Shown: positions 18,572 to 24,646 of the stretch, piece after piece
How positions within the stretch are numbered: the first letter of the stretch is position 1
Layout of the letters: each line of letters starts with the position of its first letter
Source: Candidatus Kapaibacterium sp.
GTDB lineage: Bacteria; Bacteroidota; Ignavibacteria; Kapaibacteriales; Kapaibacteriaceae
Length of the DNA: 34,089 nucleotides
NCBI GenBank assembly: GCA_018882585.1
Contig: VFFB01000016.1
Span: forward strand, 1 to 34,089
Direction of reading: 5' to 3'
The notes under the pieces: generated by a model
Told to the model about the DNA's origin: nothing
Seen by the model: only the letters and a program-made list of their open reading frames with translations
The model's database searches: none
Program-made: the position numbers and the translations under genes

Positions 18572-20581
18572 ATGGCTGAGCAGATCAGCAACACGCAAGG
18601 GTACAGCGAAGATTCCATCAAGGTTCTCGAAGGCCTCGAGGCCGTTCGGAAACGTCCGGCCATGTACATCGGCGACGTCGGAGAACGCGGTCTGCACCAC
18701 CTTATCCAGGAGGTCGTCGACAACTCCATCGACGAGGCCCTTGCAGGGTTCTGCCGGAACATCGTGATCACACTGCATGCCGACGGCTCGTGCTCGGTGC
18801 AGGACGACGGTCGCGGCATTCCCGTAGGACCGCACCCGGTGAAGAAGATCTCGACGCTCGAGGTCGTGATGTGCACGCTGCATGCCGGTGGCAAGTTCGA
18901 CAAGAACACCTACAAGGTGTCCGGCGGTCTGCACGGCGTTGGTGTCAGCTGCGTGAACGCCCTGTCGACCGACCTTACGGTGACCGTCGAACGCGACGGG
19001 AAGATGTATGAGCAGAAGTACAAGATTGGTGCGCCACAAGGTGCCGTTGTCGAGGTTGGGAAGTCGCCTCGCACGGGCACAACAGTGCGCTTCTGGCCGG
19101 ATGCGACGATCTTCAAGACGGTCGAGTTCCGCTATGCCAAGGTGAGCGAGCGCCTGCGCGAGTTGGCCTTCCTGAATCCCGACGTAACGATCACGCTGCA
19201 GGATGAGCGCGACGGCCAGAAAGATGTCTTTGCCTACCGCGGCGGACTTGTTGATTTCGTACGCCACCTGGATGCCAACAACACGGCAATCACAAAGCCC
19301 ATCCTTATGTCAGGCATGGCTCGCAACGAATCAGGCGTCGAGACGGTCGTCGATGTCTGCTTCGAGTATAACTCCGGTTACAGCGAGAATCTGCTGTCGT
19401 ACGTGAACAACATCAACACCGTCGAAGGTGGCACCCACGTTAGTGGTTTCCGCAGCGCGCTGACGCGAACGCTGAATGCCTATGCGGCAGCCAACAACCT
19501 GACGAAGAAGGACGTCAACCTGACCGGCGAGGACTTCCGCGAAGGTCTGACAGCTGTCATCAGCGTGAAGGTCGCCGAGCCGCAGTTCGAAGGTCAGACG
19601 AAGACCAAGCTTGGCAATGGCGAGACCGAGGGTATCGTTCGCTCGATCATCAACGAAGAGCTGGCCAAGTACCTCGACGCAACGCCAAGCGCAGCGAAGC
19701 ATATCATCGAAAAGGCATCGCAGGCCGCCGAAGCCCGCGCGGCAGCGCGCAAGGCCAAGGATCTGATCCGCCGCAAGGGCGCACTCGAAAGCGGTTCGCT
19801 GCCGGGTAAGCTGGCCGACTGCTCGCTTCGCTCGCCGGAAGACACCGAGATATTCCTTGTCGAGGGTGACTCCGCCGGCGGCTCTGCCAAGCAGGGCCGT
19901 GACCGTCGATTCCAAGCCATCCTGCCGCTCAAGGGGAAGATCCTGAACGTGCACAAGGCACGGCTGACGAAGGTGCTGGAGAACGAGGAAGTGCGGACCA
20001 TCCTGACCGCCATCGGCGCAGGCTTCGGTGACGACTTCGATTCAGCAAAGGCACGCTACGGCAAGATCATCCTGATGGCCGATGCCGACGTCGATGGATC
20101 GCACATCCGTACGCTGCTGCTGACGTTGTTCTGGAAGCACATGCCCGACCTGATCAACGACGGTAAGCTGTACATCGCCCAGCCGCCGCTATACAAGGTC
20201 AAGAAGGGCAAGCAGGAATTCTATGCCTACAACGAGGCCGAGCGGGACGAGATCATCGCCCGCATTCGCAAGGAGAAGGCCGACCGCAAAGCCGCCAAGG
20301 CGGCCGAGAAGGGTGAACCCGTCGAAGAGGCCGAAGTGATCGAGGAAGGTGCAACGCCGGACGGTATCGTGATCAGCCGCTTCAAGGGTCTTGGCGAGAT
20401 GAATCCCGAGCAGCTCTGGGCCACGACGATGAATCCCGAGACGCGGACGCTGCTGCGCGTGTCGATCGAGAATGCCGCCGAAGCGATGCGCATCTTCGAG
20501 ACGCTCATGGGCGAAGCCGTCGAACCACGCCGCGAGTTCATTGAGCGCAACGCACAGTACGTCCGCAACCTTGACATCTGA
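18572..20581 (+). CDS. gyrB: DNA gyrase subunit B
   Basis: ATPase subunit of the type II topoisomerase that introduces negative supercoils. The GHKL ATPase half has EVVDNSIDEA, DDGRGIPV, HAGGKFD and GGLHGVGVSCVNALS. The transducer QTKTKLGN loop follows. The TOPRIM half has LVEGDSAGGSAKQGRDR (about 430) and MADADVDGSHIRTLLLT (about 504), then the end motif RFKGLGEMNPEQLWATTM, which favours GyrB over ParE. The 669-residue form lacks the large insertion of enterobacterial GyrB. A Lys/Ala/Glu-rich insertion of about 30 residues (about 568-596) lies before the final motif and is unusual in composition. The next gene starts on the last base of the stop codon. Confidence 0.97.
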   Translation: MAEQISNTQGYSEDSIKVLEGLEAVRKRPAMYIGDVGERGLHHLIQEVVDNSIDEALAGFCRNIVITLHADGSCSVQDDGRGIPVGPHPVKKISTLEVVMCTLHAGGKFDKNTYKVSGGLHGVGVSCVNALSTDLTVTVERDGKMYEQKYKIGAPQGAVVEVGKSPRTGTTVRFWPDATIFKTVEFRYAKVSERLRELAFLNPDVTITLQDERDGQKDVFAYRGGLVDFVRHLDANNTAITKPILMSGMARNESGVETVVDVCFEYNSGYSENLLSYVNNINTVEGGTHVSGFRSALTRTLNAYAAANNLTKKDVNLTGEDFREGLTAVISVKVAEPQFEGQTKTKLGNGETEGIVRSIINEELAKYLDATPSAAKHIIEKASQAAEARAAARKAKDLIRRKGALESGSLPGKLADCSLRSPEDTEIFLVEGDSAGGSAKQGRDRRFQAILPLKGKILNVHKARLTKVLENEEVRTILTAIGAGFGDDFDSAKARYGKIILMADADVDGSHIRTLLLTLFWKHMPDLINDGKLYIAQPPLYKVKKGKQEFYAYNEAERDEIIARIRKEKADRKAAKAAEKGEPVEEAEVIEEGATPDGIVISRFKGLGEMNPEQLWATTMNPETRTLLRVSIENAAEAMRIFETLMGEAVEPRREFIERNAQYVRNLDI

Positions 20582-21081
20582 TGGACGGCGAGTCCCATAG
20601 GCAACAAGTTGAGCGACTGCTGCAGAGCGTAACCGAGGGTCGTCCGCTGGGTGCCGATGAGCGGGACGTGCTTGAGCACATCCTGCGCAACGAGTTGATC
20701 ACGGATGTACCGGACGATTTTGAGGACGGCCCCACAACGGTAGGGCAACGGCTGGCCGATCATGTGGCTGCCTTCGGTGGCTCGTGGCTGTTCATCAGCG
20801 CCTTCTTCACCTTCATCCTGCTGTGGATGCTCACGAATGTGTTGCTGCTTGCCGGCCATGCCTTCGACCCCTATCCGTTCATCCTGCTTAACCTGATCCT
20901 AAGCTGCCTTGCAGCCGTCCAGGCACCGATCATCATGATGAGCCAGAATCGGCAGGAAGAGAAGGACCGTCAGCGCGCCCGAGCCGACTACCGCGTGAAT
21001 CTGAAAGCCGAGGTCGAGATCCGGCTTCTGCACGAAAAGATCGACGCGCTTCAGCGTCTGCTACAGGAACAACGCCAGTAA
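20581..21081 (+). CDS. DUF1003 membrane protein
   Basis: A 166-residue protein of the DUF1003 family, whose function is not known. Two membrane helices (about 63-82, and 95-112) are joined by the family core FDPYPFILLNLILS, then AAVQAPIIMMSQNRQ. The tail has the conserved 'DYRVNLKAEVEIRLLHEKID' helix, which looks coiled. The N-terminal 45 residues are charged and soluble. It overlaps the gyrB stop by one base and is the last gene of the replication cluster; coexpression with gyrB is likely but its job is unclear. Confidence 0.85.
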   Translation: MDGESHRQQVERLLQSVTEGRPLGADERDVLEHILRNELITDVPDDFEDGPTTVGQRLADHVAAFGGSWLFISAFFTFILLWMLTNVLLLAGHAFDPYPFILLNLILSCLAAVQAPIIMMSQNRQEEKDRQRARADYRVNLKAEVEIRLLHEKIDALQRLLQEQRQ

Positions 21082-21119
21082 CCCTGGTGCTGCGAGGTTG
21101 ACATCTACGAGGAAAACGA

Positions 21120-21153
21120 AAGGCCCCGAACGTCTGCACCCGTTCGAGGCCTT
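21120..21153. terminator. Stem-loop between convergent genes
   Basis: AAGGCC-C-CGAACG (21120-21132) pairs with CGTTCG-A-GGCCTT (21141-21153) around an eight-base loop, with one mismatch. On the minus strand the stem runs into TTTCGTTTTCC, a T-rich tail, so it should end the secreted-protein gene at 21234. It may also serve the plus-strand gyrB cluster. Confidence 0.7.
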
Positions 21154-21233
21154 CAAGTCCTGTGTTGACGGGAATACCCGACCGTCCAGGCGCAGGCAAG
21201 AACGTCGTGGCCGCGTCTTTGGTTCCCGGCTTT

Positions 21234-24200
21234 CTACCTGACAATGACTGGCAGGCTTGACCGGCCACCCGGCGTCGTAACGACCAGTACGTACATGCCC
21301 GGTGCAACACCCTGCATTGGCAGCGCCATCCGCTGCGCACCGTCACCACGCTGCGTCAAGACGCGGGCCCCGGTTACGGCAATAAGCTCCATTTCGACGA
21401 TGCCACGTTCGTCGACAACGGTTGCCGTAAGGTGTTCGGAAAGGGGCATCGGCATTACCGTCGGGGATGACGCTGCATAGCCGGCGACACTCACGGTTGA
21501 CGAGTCGACGAAGAAGTGCTGCGACCAGAACGACGTGCCGACAAGCCGCTGCTGCGTCGAACCGTCGCCATTCGTCAGACGGATGCTCACCGGACGGTGG
21601 TCGACGATGCGGTTCGTGGCGCTGCCAAGGAGAACCGTATCAAGCAGAGCAAAGCCTTCCTCGTCAGTGACTGCCGTGGCAAGGACCGTGCCGGTCCGAC
21701 TTACAATGTCGACCGTGGCCCCTTTTCGTGGATTGCCGGCTGCATCGTTGACGATGGCTGAAAGGGTCTGACGCAGATGCACGGCAGCCCCGTTTGGCGT
21801 GATGGTGTTGGGCAGGTTGATGGAACAGTCCACGCAGTGGACGATGCCGCCGCCGCTGACGCGGATGTCGAAGTTGTCGGGCCGGACCACGTCCAGACCG
21901 CGGATGACGTACGACTTGATGTTGCCCGAAAGGTCAACGGTGACTGCGTCGCCGCGGCTTCCGTACAGGCCAAGCATCGACACGTTGTGCGTGCCACCAG
22001 TTGGGCGTAGCACGAGCGCCGTTGTACCCGCGCGCATGCTGCGAATGGCAAGATCGTTGTGCGCGATGGATAGCTTTGGCACTCCCGATAGAACAAGGCC
22101 ACCGATGTTGCATCGACCTGCCGCAGCCGAGGTCCACTCGAGTGGACTGCCGGTGGTGGACGTCGAGGAAATGTTGGCCCCGCTGATGCGGAGCTCCGTT
22201 GCATCGGCGGACAACGTCGATGTTGCCGACAATTCCACGTAGGAGTTCTCGATGCGGCGCACGGGATGCGTTCCTGAGGCAACAACGGCGTCGTTCAGCG
22301 AGAGGCTTGTTGGAAGGAGCATCGTCGAGTCGGCATTCATGGGCCGCAGGACGGTCGAACGCAGAATGGTTCGGGATGCCGTTTCCTTGTCGGTAAGCGA
22401 CACGGTCACAGATCCGCCGCCGGGTTGGTCGGACTTTAGTGCACCTGCGATAACAAGGCGCGTGTCCGATGTTCTGCGTGTTGTCACCAAGGCCGGCAGT
22501 CGGACCGAATCCACGGCGGCACCGCCGGTCTCGACGCCGACGATATACGTCCGTGACGTATCGTCGTTAACCTGGAAGACTGTTCGATAGTATTGCGGAT
22601 TGGTTGCCACCATCACCATCTCGCGCAGGCTGATGACCTGTCCGGAATCACTGATGATGGTTGGGCCATTGGCGCTGGGGGCACGGCGGATGATAATACC
22701 GTTCCATTCCGTAGGCAGTGTGGCGATACGGATGCGCTGTTGTGCATCGACTTGCGGGCGCAGGCGCGCAAGCACCGTGTCGTTACGGCTGGCACCACGT
22801 CCGCGAACGGCGATGATCTCGTAGACACCGTCAGCACGAAGGCGTGTATCGCCGACGTTCTCGATGTGGACGTAGCCGCCACGTACGATGGTGTCGCGGC
22901 GGGCAGCACCTGCTTTGACCTTCGTCGCAATCGAAAACTGTTCGGTAACGACGTACAGCGAACCATTGTCGGCTGGTATTACCCATGACGGATCGCTCCA
23001 GCCCTGCAGAGAGGATGCGGCAGCGCGCAGCGGCGAATTCAGATCGGTGACCGACGGGTTCGGGCGCACGGCGCTATCGCCCGGAGGCGTTGTGACGAGT
23101 GTCCAACGAGCTGCCTCGGCCACATCGACGTAGCCGTTGCCATCGGCGTCGGCATCGCGTGTAGACATGGCAACACGCAAGGCACGCTCCCAGTATGTGC
23201 CTTGCCCCGGCCCGGAGAGCATCGTCGATACCGAATCGGCACTCGCGATGAGCGTGCCGAGGATCTGACTGTCCGCAAGTCGGCCACGAATTCCAAGAGC
23301 TCGCGATGTGGTAACGTCAATCGTTATGTCAGCTGCGTTCAGCTCCCGCAACATGTCGACAAGTGAGGCCCATGGCAGGATCTCGGTGTTGTTGAACCCG
23401 TCGCCGCTCAGGATAGGTCCCTCGCTCGTGCTGTGGCCCAGGTACTTTACGATGACCGATCGGCATCCTGCCGACCGCAGTCCCTTTAGTTCGTCATGAA
23501 GTGCTGCAACGGTGATGCCTTCGTTGTTGACACCGCGGCGCACAATGATGCTGCCAAAGTTGACACGCGGGCCGGTTGTATTGCTGTTCAACCGTGTGAT
23601 GAACGACGATATGTCGTGGCGAATCACCACATCATCAAGGTCACGCATTGTCTTGCCTGTGAAGACCAGCACACAAAGCGAATCGTTTGACGTGCGATCC
23701 GATGAGAAAGGCTCGGCCTGCGAGCAATTGCCGGCTGTGCCGCGAACGCGCGAAGCGTTCACGCCGCAGTAGGGCCCTGGGTCGACGGCGATGCTATCGA
23801 TGCTGAATGGTACCTGCGTCGAGAATACCGCAACAGGCGCCGCACTGCCGATCTCGGCGGGGACTGCAACGCCAACGACATCATGTCCGAAGAACGCAAA
23901 GGGGTCGGTATCGACAAAGAAGACATGGCTTGGCACTGACAGCGTAACATCGCTGTTGTCGATCATGCGAATGATAGCACCGGCAGAGATGACGGAGTCG
24001 GCTTGATCCTTGGCGGGACGCAAATGAAATGCTGCGGCTTGCGCCGGGACGTTTCGAGCCCGCAGAACCGAGTCCAGTACTACCGTTGCCGTTGCGATCG
24101 GAATGAAGCCTGGCAGTGGGTTAGCCGAACCCAGAGCCGTGTTGTCCGAAGGGTCGGTCTCGGCACCGTACACCACTTCAGCCGTTGCCTCGTGCAGGCC

Positions 24201-24506
24201 CCGTCGTGTAGGCTTGAAGTTGTATGGCGTCCACACGTTCTGTGATGATTCGGCCAGGATACTTGTGCCGGAGGCCTCCTGCTGGTATACAACAGTGCCC
24301 TCGTAGCGGACCGTAAACCTGACCGTGAAGGTCCCCGATGCTTTCGTTCCGCTGTTGACGACTTCCAGACCAATTCGGCCGGCTCGCTCGACGCGAGGCA
24401 GCGGATCAAACGTGATCTTACTCGCCACAAGGTCGGTCGCAAGGGCATACGTCGCGGACGACAGCCACAGGGCCGCAGCCAAGATTGATGTTCGCATTGT
24501 CGACAT
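21234..24506 (-). CDS. Large secreted protein with pseudo-caspase-like domain and T9SS-like tail
   Basis: A 1090-residue protein. ATG 24506 is set by a GGAGGG ribosome site. The signal peptide (1-23) ends at YALA. A CARDB-like adhesion domain follows (about 24-125). The segment at about 278-470 resembles the caspase-like fold: strand VIVKYLGHST with His358, then ITIDVTTS at 395-401 where active enzymes have a D-x-C-x-S, then GTLIASA and a helix 'GTYWERALRVAM'. An EF-hand-like Ca2+ loop DADGNGYVDVAE (453-464) comes next, as in some caspase-family proteins. His is kept, but the catalytic cysteine is replaced by threonine. A beta-rich, possibly right-handed helix region precedes a CVDC pair and an Ig-like segment. 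The last 75 or so residues look like a T9SS sorting domain (GMYVLVVTTPGG). The role is unknown, perhaps surface binding. The pseudo-enzyme reading is an inference. Confidence 0.78.
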   Translation of the reverse strand: MSTMRTSILAAALWLSSATYALATDLVASKITFDPLPRVERAGRIGLEVVNSGTKASGTFTVRFTVRYEGTVVYQQEASGTSILAESSQNVWTPYNFKPTRRGLHEATAEVVYGAETDPSDNTALGSANPLPGFIPIATATVVLDSVLRARNVPAQAAAFHLRPAKDQADSVISAGAIIRMIDNSDVTLSVPSHVFFVDTDPFAFFGHDVVGVAVPAEIGSAAPVAVFSTQVPFSIDSIAVDPGPYCGVNASRVRGTAGNCSQAEPFSSDRTSNDSLCVLVFTGKTMRDLDDVVIRHDISSFITRLNSNTTGPRVNFGSIIVRRGVNNEGITVAALHDELKGLRSAGCRSVIVKYLGHSTSEGPILSGDGFNNTEILPWASLVDMLRELNAADITIDVTTSRALGIRGRLADSQILGTLIASADSVSTMLSGPGQGTYWERALRVAMSTRDADADGNGYVDVAEAARWTLVTTPPGDSAVRPNPSVTDLNSPLRAAASSLQGWSDPSWVIPADNGSLYVVTEQFSIATKVKAGAARRDTIVRGGYVHIENVGDTRLRADGVYEIIAVRGRGASRNDTVLARLRPQVDAQQRIRIATLPTEWNGIIIRRAPSANGPTIISDSGQVISLREMVMVATNPQYYRTVFQVNDDTSRTYIVGVETGGAAVDSVRLPALVTTRRTSDTRLVIAGALKSDQPGGGSVTVSLTDKETASRTILRSTVLRPMNADSTMLLPTSLSLNDAVVASGTHPVRRIENSYVELSATSTLSADATELRISGANISSTSTTGSPLEWTSAAAGRCNIGGLVLSGVPKLSIAHNDLAIRSMRAGTTALVLRPTGGTHNVSMLGLYGSRGDAVTVDLSGNIKSYVIRGLDVVRPDNFDIRVSGGGIVHCVDCSINLPNTITPNGAAVHLRQTLSAIVNDAAGNPRKGATVDIVSRTGTVLATAVTDEEGFALLDTVLLGSATNRIVDHRPVSIRLTNGDGSTQQRLVGTSFWSQHFFVDSSTVSVAGYAASSPTVMPMPLSEHLTATVVDERGIVEMELIAVTGARVLTQRGDGAQRMALPMQGVAPGMYVLVVTTPGGRSSLPVIVR

Positions 24507-24510
24507 GGAT

Positions 24511-24516
24511 CCCTCC
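24511..24516 (-). promoter_or_regulatory. Ribosome binding site for the large secreted protein
   Basis: GGAGGG on the minus strand, four bases before ATG 24506. It decides this start over an upstream in-frame ATG (24587) and a following ATG (24497). Confidence 0.7.
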
Positions 24517-24571
24517 AGGAGTTCAGGCGCGAAAGATAGGACGTGCCAGCGGTAAATCCCATGAACGACGA

Positions 24572-24602
24572 CGCCCCTTCTTCGCATGTGGAAAAAGGGG
24601 CG
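24572..24602 (-). terminator. Stem-loop after ahcY
   Basis: CGCCCCTT (24572-24579) pairs with AAGGGGCG (24595-24602), and two further A-T pairs follow after a mismatch. It sits 45 bases past the ahcY stop. There is no clear T-run on the minus-strand side, so termination is probable rather than certain. Confidence 0.5.
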
Positions 24603-24646
24603 CGGAATGTGACGTTGTCGTTGGTCGAGATTCGACCGCGTGCTGA

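Follow-up and report, generated by a model that had tools for sequence, protein, structure and literature searches.

The window analyzed here, a stretch of 34,089 nucleotides from Candidatus Kapaibacterium sp., encodes on its minus strand a protein of 1090 residues that has a real caspase/haemoglobinase-like domain (approximately residues 269–500), in which a serine, Ser401, stands at the position of the catalytic cysteine. The protein is likely a secreted pseudo-peptidase, its peptidase activity being predicted as lost. A pseudo-peptidase that keeps its fold, perhaps for ligand or calcium-dependent binding, had been proposed in an earlier note on this DNA; the matches to caspases, the replacement of the cysteine by Ser401, and the open reading frame support this proposal, and the calcium loop was found to belong to the whole protein family.

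The region under study comprises residues 276–469 of the 1090-residue protein on the minus strand, and the parts that can be distinguished along the protein are listed in Table 1. The reading frame is intact, with no stops in 1,090 codons, compared with an average of about 33 in the shuffled coding sequence. Cysteine occurs seven times in the protein, at positions 247, 261, 278, 348, 799, 891, and 894. Aligned relatives share one order of parts: a signal-peptide-like start, a CARDB-like domain, a conserved leading region, the caspase-like domain, β-rich regions, an Ig-like domain, and a T9SS-like tail. The CARDB-like domain and the T9SS-type tail named in the earlier note are both weak assignments with scores below the respective cut-offs (Table 1), yet the former region is shared by the homologues, and the genome that encodes the latter has sprA. 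The product of this gene, the T9SS translocon protein SprA (TIGR04189), was identified with 833 bits (cut-off 200), and the window protein is predicted to be exported, probably by type IX secretion.

Table 1. Features of the gene and its product; positions are those of the window.
Feature	Position	Strand	Basis
Coding sequence of the 1090-residue secreted pseudo-peptidase (predicted)	21234..24506	(-)	Open frame; GGAGG 5 bases upstream of the ATG at 24506; full-length homologues (E 1.7e-77)
Signal-peptide-like N-terminus, residues 1–24	24435..24506	(-)	Sequence pattern MSTMRTSILAAALWLSSATYALA; putative cleavage site set by eye
CARDB-like domain, residues 25–116	24159..24434	(-)	Pfam CARDB 15.1 bits, below the cut-off of 22.7; region common to homologues
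Region before the caspase-like core, residues 144–268	23703..24077	(-)	Conserved in the family, aligned with all full-length homologues; no known domain
Caspase/haemoglobinase-like domain, residues 269–500	23007..23702	(-)	133.7 bits with an HMM from relatives only; Z 10.6 to caspase-11 in VIA-align; best Foldseek match caspase-1
His358, on the catalytic histidine	23433..23435	(-)	GHS in the window protein, GHG in relatives
Ser401 (codon TCG), on the catalytic cysteine of relatives and caspases	23304..23306	(-)	Homologue alignment, HMM, structural alignment
EF-hand-type loop DADGNGYVDVAE, residues 453–464	23115..23150	(-)	Fitting residues at ligand positions 1, 3, 5, and 12; loop shared by most relatives
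β-rich repeat-like region, residues 691–905, perhaps a β-helix	21792..22436	(-)	Inferred from sequence pattern and low-confidence model; common to homologues
Ig-like/carboxypeptidase-regulatory-like domain, residues 913–965	21612..21770	(-)	bMG3 24.8, Big_1 20.5, and CarboxypepD_reg 18.6 bits, all below cut-off
T9SS type A sorting-domain-like C-terminus, residues 1019–1089	21240..21452	(-)	TIGR04183 (Por_Secre_tail) 18.2 bits, cut-off 23

The nature of the domain was established by combining profile searches with structure prediction. A hidden Markov model (HMM) for which five relatives were used, and from which the window protein was left out, scores the latter at 133.7 bits (E 7e-40), whereas the best of 2,000 shuffles reaches 7.6 bits. 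Used alone as a query, the window protein has no match by sequence among the peptidase families in Pfam, including Peptidase_C13 (PF01650) and Peptidase_C14 (PF00656), and none in a sequence search of the PDB. A comparison with known peptidase families, as suggested in the earlier note, thus yielded matches for the relatives and not for the window protein itself. The nearest relatives score approximately 16 to 18 bits against Peptidase_C13, below the cut-off of 22.8, and more distant relatives retrieved with the same profile reach up to 34.3 bits; distant relatives score 28.3 to 48 bits against Peptidase_C14 (cut-off 21.4). Profiles of the family retrieve from the PDB only weak matches to asparaginyl endopeptidases/legumains, the best being plant asparaginyl endopeptidases (E 0.0043). 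Because the nearest relatives approach family C13, and the distant ones pass the cut-offs of both C14 and C13, sequence comparison places the window protein in clan CD, near these two families and assigned to neither.

Structure prediction and a fold search gave results in line with this placement. A model of residues 262–512 was generated from an alignment of six sequences and has a mean pLDDT of 50, with block means of 54 to 85 across residues 272–391, which constitute the first half, and low values in the second half; the fold is thus seen in part. A model of the whole protein made without an alignment was discarded (pLDDT 36). Using the model of residues 262–512 as a query, Foldseek returned caspases first, the best match being caspase-1 (6vie_A; E 1e-4), and VIA-align superposed 126 residues on caspase-11 (6kmu_G) with Z 10.6 and an rmsd of 3.2. 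The alignment with this caspase-11, a C254A variant, ends with model residue 140, which is Ser401, on residue 254, and in other structural alignments the last aligned pair is model residue 139 and residue 284 of caspase-1, the neighbor of the catalytic Cys285. In clan CD, the catalytic histidine and cysteine are located at the ends of strands β3 and β4 (PMC4357240); in the model, β3 stops just before His358 and β4 just before Ser401, and the order of elements (β3, a small hairpin, α3, and β4) agrees with the description of the clan (PMC4357240). A Z-score of this size on a weak model would be insufficient alone; together with the sequence evidence, it is sufficient for accepting a caspase fold.

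Within this domain, the earlier note had recognized a strand ending in Gly-His and a second strand, ITIDVTTS, at the site where active enzymes carry D-x-C-x-S. His358 indeed aligns with the catalytic histidine in the GHG motif of the relatives, and ITIDVTTS is found at the cysteine site, although it spans residues 394–401 rather than 395–401. The codons for Gly357-His358 are at 23433–23438 (minus strand), with Gly357-His358-Ser359 encoded by GGC CAC AGC and Thr399-Thr400-Ser401 by ACC ACA TCG. The two motifs read YLGHS...TSRAL in the window protein and YxGHG...A-C-[HYF]-[SA]-G in relatives; compared with full-length relatives, GHS...TTSRAL occupies the places of GHG...ACxSG. Thus, besides replacement of the catalytic cysteine by Ser401, which leaves an HS dyad, the site differs from that of relatives by G359S, A400T, G404L, and changes in the residues in between.

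The equivalence of Ser401 and the catalytic cysteine follows from the alignment with the two nearest relatives (L002 and L020), which read YIGHG...EVTACHSG; this alignment is free of gaps between ITIDVTTSRALGIRGRL and ICIEVTACHSGGIVSHL, including the surroundings of the strand that ends in Ser401. In the five-relative HMM, too, the cysteine of the model lands on Ser401. In the six-sequence alignment used for the structure model, MAFFT opened a gap of six residues in the active site; the gap-free placement rests on L002/L020 and the HMM, not on that alignment. Among the 29 domains in the tree described later, 27 have a cysteine at the aligned position; it is absent from the window protein and from L043. 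The latter, from a different family of the phylum (genome G261), reads GHA...DAPYAG and is a third instance in which the site was lost. The TTS site is carried by one sequence only; a second protein with it was not found in 123 genomes of the order or in the alignments of relatives.

In a search of 60 relatives, genome G037 provided two full-length homologues, L002 and L020, at 26% identity, one match extending over approximately 1,060 residues (E 1.7e-77) and the other over approximately 1,000 (E 4.2e-72); matches in genome G029 were weaker. These proteins, together with L070 (contig JANQRB010000009.1 of Candidatus Kapaibacterium sp., a genus assigned by NCBI to Eximiradiia, Bacteroidota), belong to an unnamed secreted family of the same order that shares with the window protein its length and order of parts over approximately 1,060 residues, the GH motif, and the calcium loop. 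In the family members the site is complete, in the form GHG...ACxSG or a near variant of it, whereas the window protein has GHS...TTSRAL. The domain occurs in nine of the 123 genomes of the order, the window genome included, and none of its other occurrences is closer to the window protein. A scan of the collection returned three loci, and two scans of viral contigs yielded no relative. A tree of 29 domains groups the window protein with L002/L020 as its sisters (support 100/99), and the cysteine is present in all other members of its 11-row clade. The terminal branch of the window protein amounts to 2.19 changes per column, compared with 0.18 to 0.39 in its sisters.

In genome G029, contig C71 encodes seven full-length family proteins consecutively within ~22 kb (~111.8–133.7 kb; L046, L053, L058, L060, L063, L065, and L066), all with a complete GHG...AC site, and this arrangement in a row indicates a tandem expansion; L069 and L071 are further family loci of this genome. 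Elsewhere, L054/L062 (G461), L055 (G458), and L064 (G461) contain two to three caspase-like domains in one frame, with both His and Cys present where the domain was covered.

The gene is located between gyrB and ahcY, and its neighbors, as read from their sequences, are what we take to be ahcY on one side and a DUF1003-like gene adjoining gyrB on the other. In the window, the gap between these two facing genes (20581–24646) holds two genes; the corresponding gap is occupied by one frame in G001 and by several in G008, and it is empty in G005, G010, and G022, three genomes of the same family in which gyrB and ahcY face each other some 100 to 180 bases apart. This variability of the gap among relatives indicates that the gene is a lineage-specific occupant. 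The window protein was found in one genome only, and the 22 other genomes of the family lack the domain, except for one distant relative in G013; gain in the window lineage would be simpler than loss in 22 relatives, and gain is the direction that we infer.

Within the window genome, there is no other family member, no match to C13, and no match to C14 above the cut-off. Given these absences, a role of the pseudo-enzyme as regulator of a closely related active paralogue has no support. The genome does encode two Peptidase_C25 proteins. Gingipains (family C25) also belong to clan CD and occur in bacteria with T9SS, but neither of the two matches is the window protein. The second of these matches, L075, is at a contig end (G000:C32:4-948), and L074 has the better score.

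An EF-hand-type loop, DADGNGYVDVAE, at residues 453–464 had been predicted in full, and it is present: D453, D455, and N457 supply the Asp or Asn of ligand positions 1, 3, and 5, and E464 supplies the Glu of position 12. In the wider family, 23 of 31 distinct loops fill these positions in the same way, among them loops of members with a complete site. Because relatives with a complete active site carry it, the loop is an ancestral feature of the family and does not represent a calcium device that arose in an inactive enzyme. The predicted loop may enable the domain to bind calcium.

Changes in the window protein are unevenly distributed. In a relative-rate test with five outgroup sequences, the caspase domain of the window protein shows 32 changes of its own versus 13 for L002 (p 0.007), and 28 versus 10 for L020 (p 0.005), whereas ahead of the domain the numbers are nearly equal (10 versus 11 for L002 and 11 versus 12 for L020). 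An excess of changes in the domain and not ahead of it fits loss of catalytic constraint; because the window protein is also faster after residue 500 (37 versus 17), constraint has dropped in the domain yet not only there. Other conserved cysteines, at 337, 384, 446, 525, 569, and 593, have been lost as well. Clustering of the lost cysteines at the active site has no support, since the losses are spread over the protein, and cysteine loss alone would therefore be weak evidence. The argument for a predicted loss of activity is carried by the joint loss of the nucleophile, its neighbors, and the glycine following the histidine. On the other hand, of 86 columns without variation among seven homologues, the window protein retains the residue in 49, and within the domain in 23 of 38; these kept columns and the open frame favor a protein still under selection, as judged from sequence.

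The kept residues bear on an unlikely alternative, namely that the gene is in decay and that the site was lost since the protein was no longer needed. The long terminal branch, the faster change of the domain in the relative-rate test, and the presence in a single genome would all be expected for such a gene, but the frame is open over its full length, the invariant residues of the domain are kept to the extent just given, and the calcium loop is retained; a branch of this length could not have stayed free of stops without selection on the protein. Less likely still is that Ser401 and His358 form a serine-type dyad and that the domain is still an enzyme (a weak peptidase, an esterase, or a transpeptidase). 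Retention of His358 and the presence of a serine at the cysteine position are what such a dyad would need; however, the rest of the site has changed too, and in pseudo-caspases described in two surveys, serine is a common replacement and is regarded as inactivating (PMC3501461, PMC6426788). We consider this reading improbable, and marginally more so the specific form of it in which a working Ser401–His358 dyad would make the protein a T9SS-exported, caspase-fold enzyme with serine in place of cysteine.

That the active cysteine occupies another position of the site, or is concealed by a local frameshift, is very improbable. The candidate would be C348, near the start of the strand that carries the histidine and kept in all aligned relatives, but in those relatives it is an additional conserved residue, besides the catalytic cysteine that they also have. 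There is no cysteine between residues 348 and 799 of the window protein, hence none near the second motif, and the two other frames over residues 381–435 contain stops and no CxSG motif. Since the change covers several codons, a single base error cannot account for it. Least probable of all, to the point of being negligible, is that the motifs are coincidental and the domain is not caspase-like: the window protein alone indeed lacks a peptidase family match by sequence in Pfam or the PDB, but against this stand the profile and fold evidence and the relatives, which reach 48 bits for Peptidase_C14 and 34.3 bits for Peptidase_C13, above the cut-offs.

In the favored reading, the protein is a pseudo-peptidase with a retained fold. 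It descends from large secreted proteins of clan CD (C13/C14-like) that share a complete His–Cys site and a calcium loop. In the window lineage, the nucleophilic cysteine became Ser401, the glycine after the histidine Ser359, and ACHSG TSRAL, with the fold and the calcium loop being retained, and the domain would now act as a calcium-stabilized binding or scaffold module in a multidomain surface or extracellular protein. As to the nature of this module, the old groove may serve to bind a peptide or protein; a purely structural role of the domain is about equally likely. The loss of the site can be assigned to one lineage because complete-site relatives of the same full-length build are known.

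Caspase-like proteins with a substituted dyad have been described before. According to one survey, 858 of 9,994 bacterial orthocaspases have a substituted dyad, mainly in Alphaproteobacteria and Cyanobacteria (PMC6426788), and serine apparently made up 43% of the cysteine substitutions in an earlier survey (PMC3501461). These pseudo-orthocaspases resemble the window protein in combining a prokaryotic caspase-like domain with a substituted dyad, often with serine for cysteine, but the variants named there are mainly YS, YA, FS, YN, QC, and HA, whereas the window protein keeps the histidine and replaces cysteine by serine (PMC6426788). The same survey cites the Trypanosoma brucei metacaspases TbMC1 (HS) and TbMC4 (YS), of which TbMC1 shares HS for HC with the window protein; both are eukaryotic type I metacaspases in a different domain setting (PMC6426788). 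The known families C13 (legumain) and C14 (caspases) of clan CD are alike in fold and in the position of the dyad and are matched by the relatives, whereas the window protein matches neither model and lacks the cysteine.

A separate group of short caspase-like proteins (L110–L119 and L039–L041) was observed in ten genomes of six genera from other families of the phylum. In these proteins, GHG and a calcium loop are conserved, and DACxSG is replaced by TMSxSG, TAPASx, or TSSAS; judged by these motifs, they apparently constitute a conserved pseudo-caspase family.

Cysteine-to-serine pseudo-caspases are thus already known (PMC6426788, PMC3501461); what is new is the predicted exported setting and the existence of full-length relatives with a complete site. 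The part of the orthocaspase survey that was available describes no large exported protein of the build of the window protein, and among its sequences from Bacteroidetes, 10 of 1,078 have a substituted dyad (PMC6426788), which makes pseudo-caspases rare in this phylum; the present case is, by prediction, a large exported protein. If the gene is expressed, the organism would keep a caspase-like domain outside the cell for a purpose other than cutting, and pairwise comparison of the window protein with its complete-site relatives offers a way to test what the fold does in the absence of catalysis.
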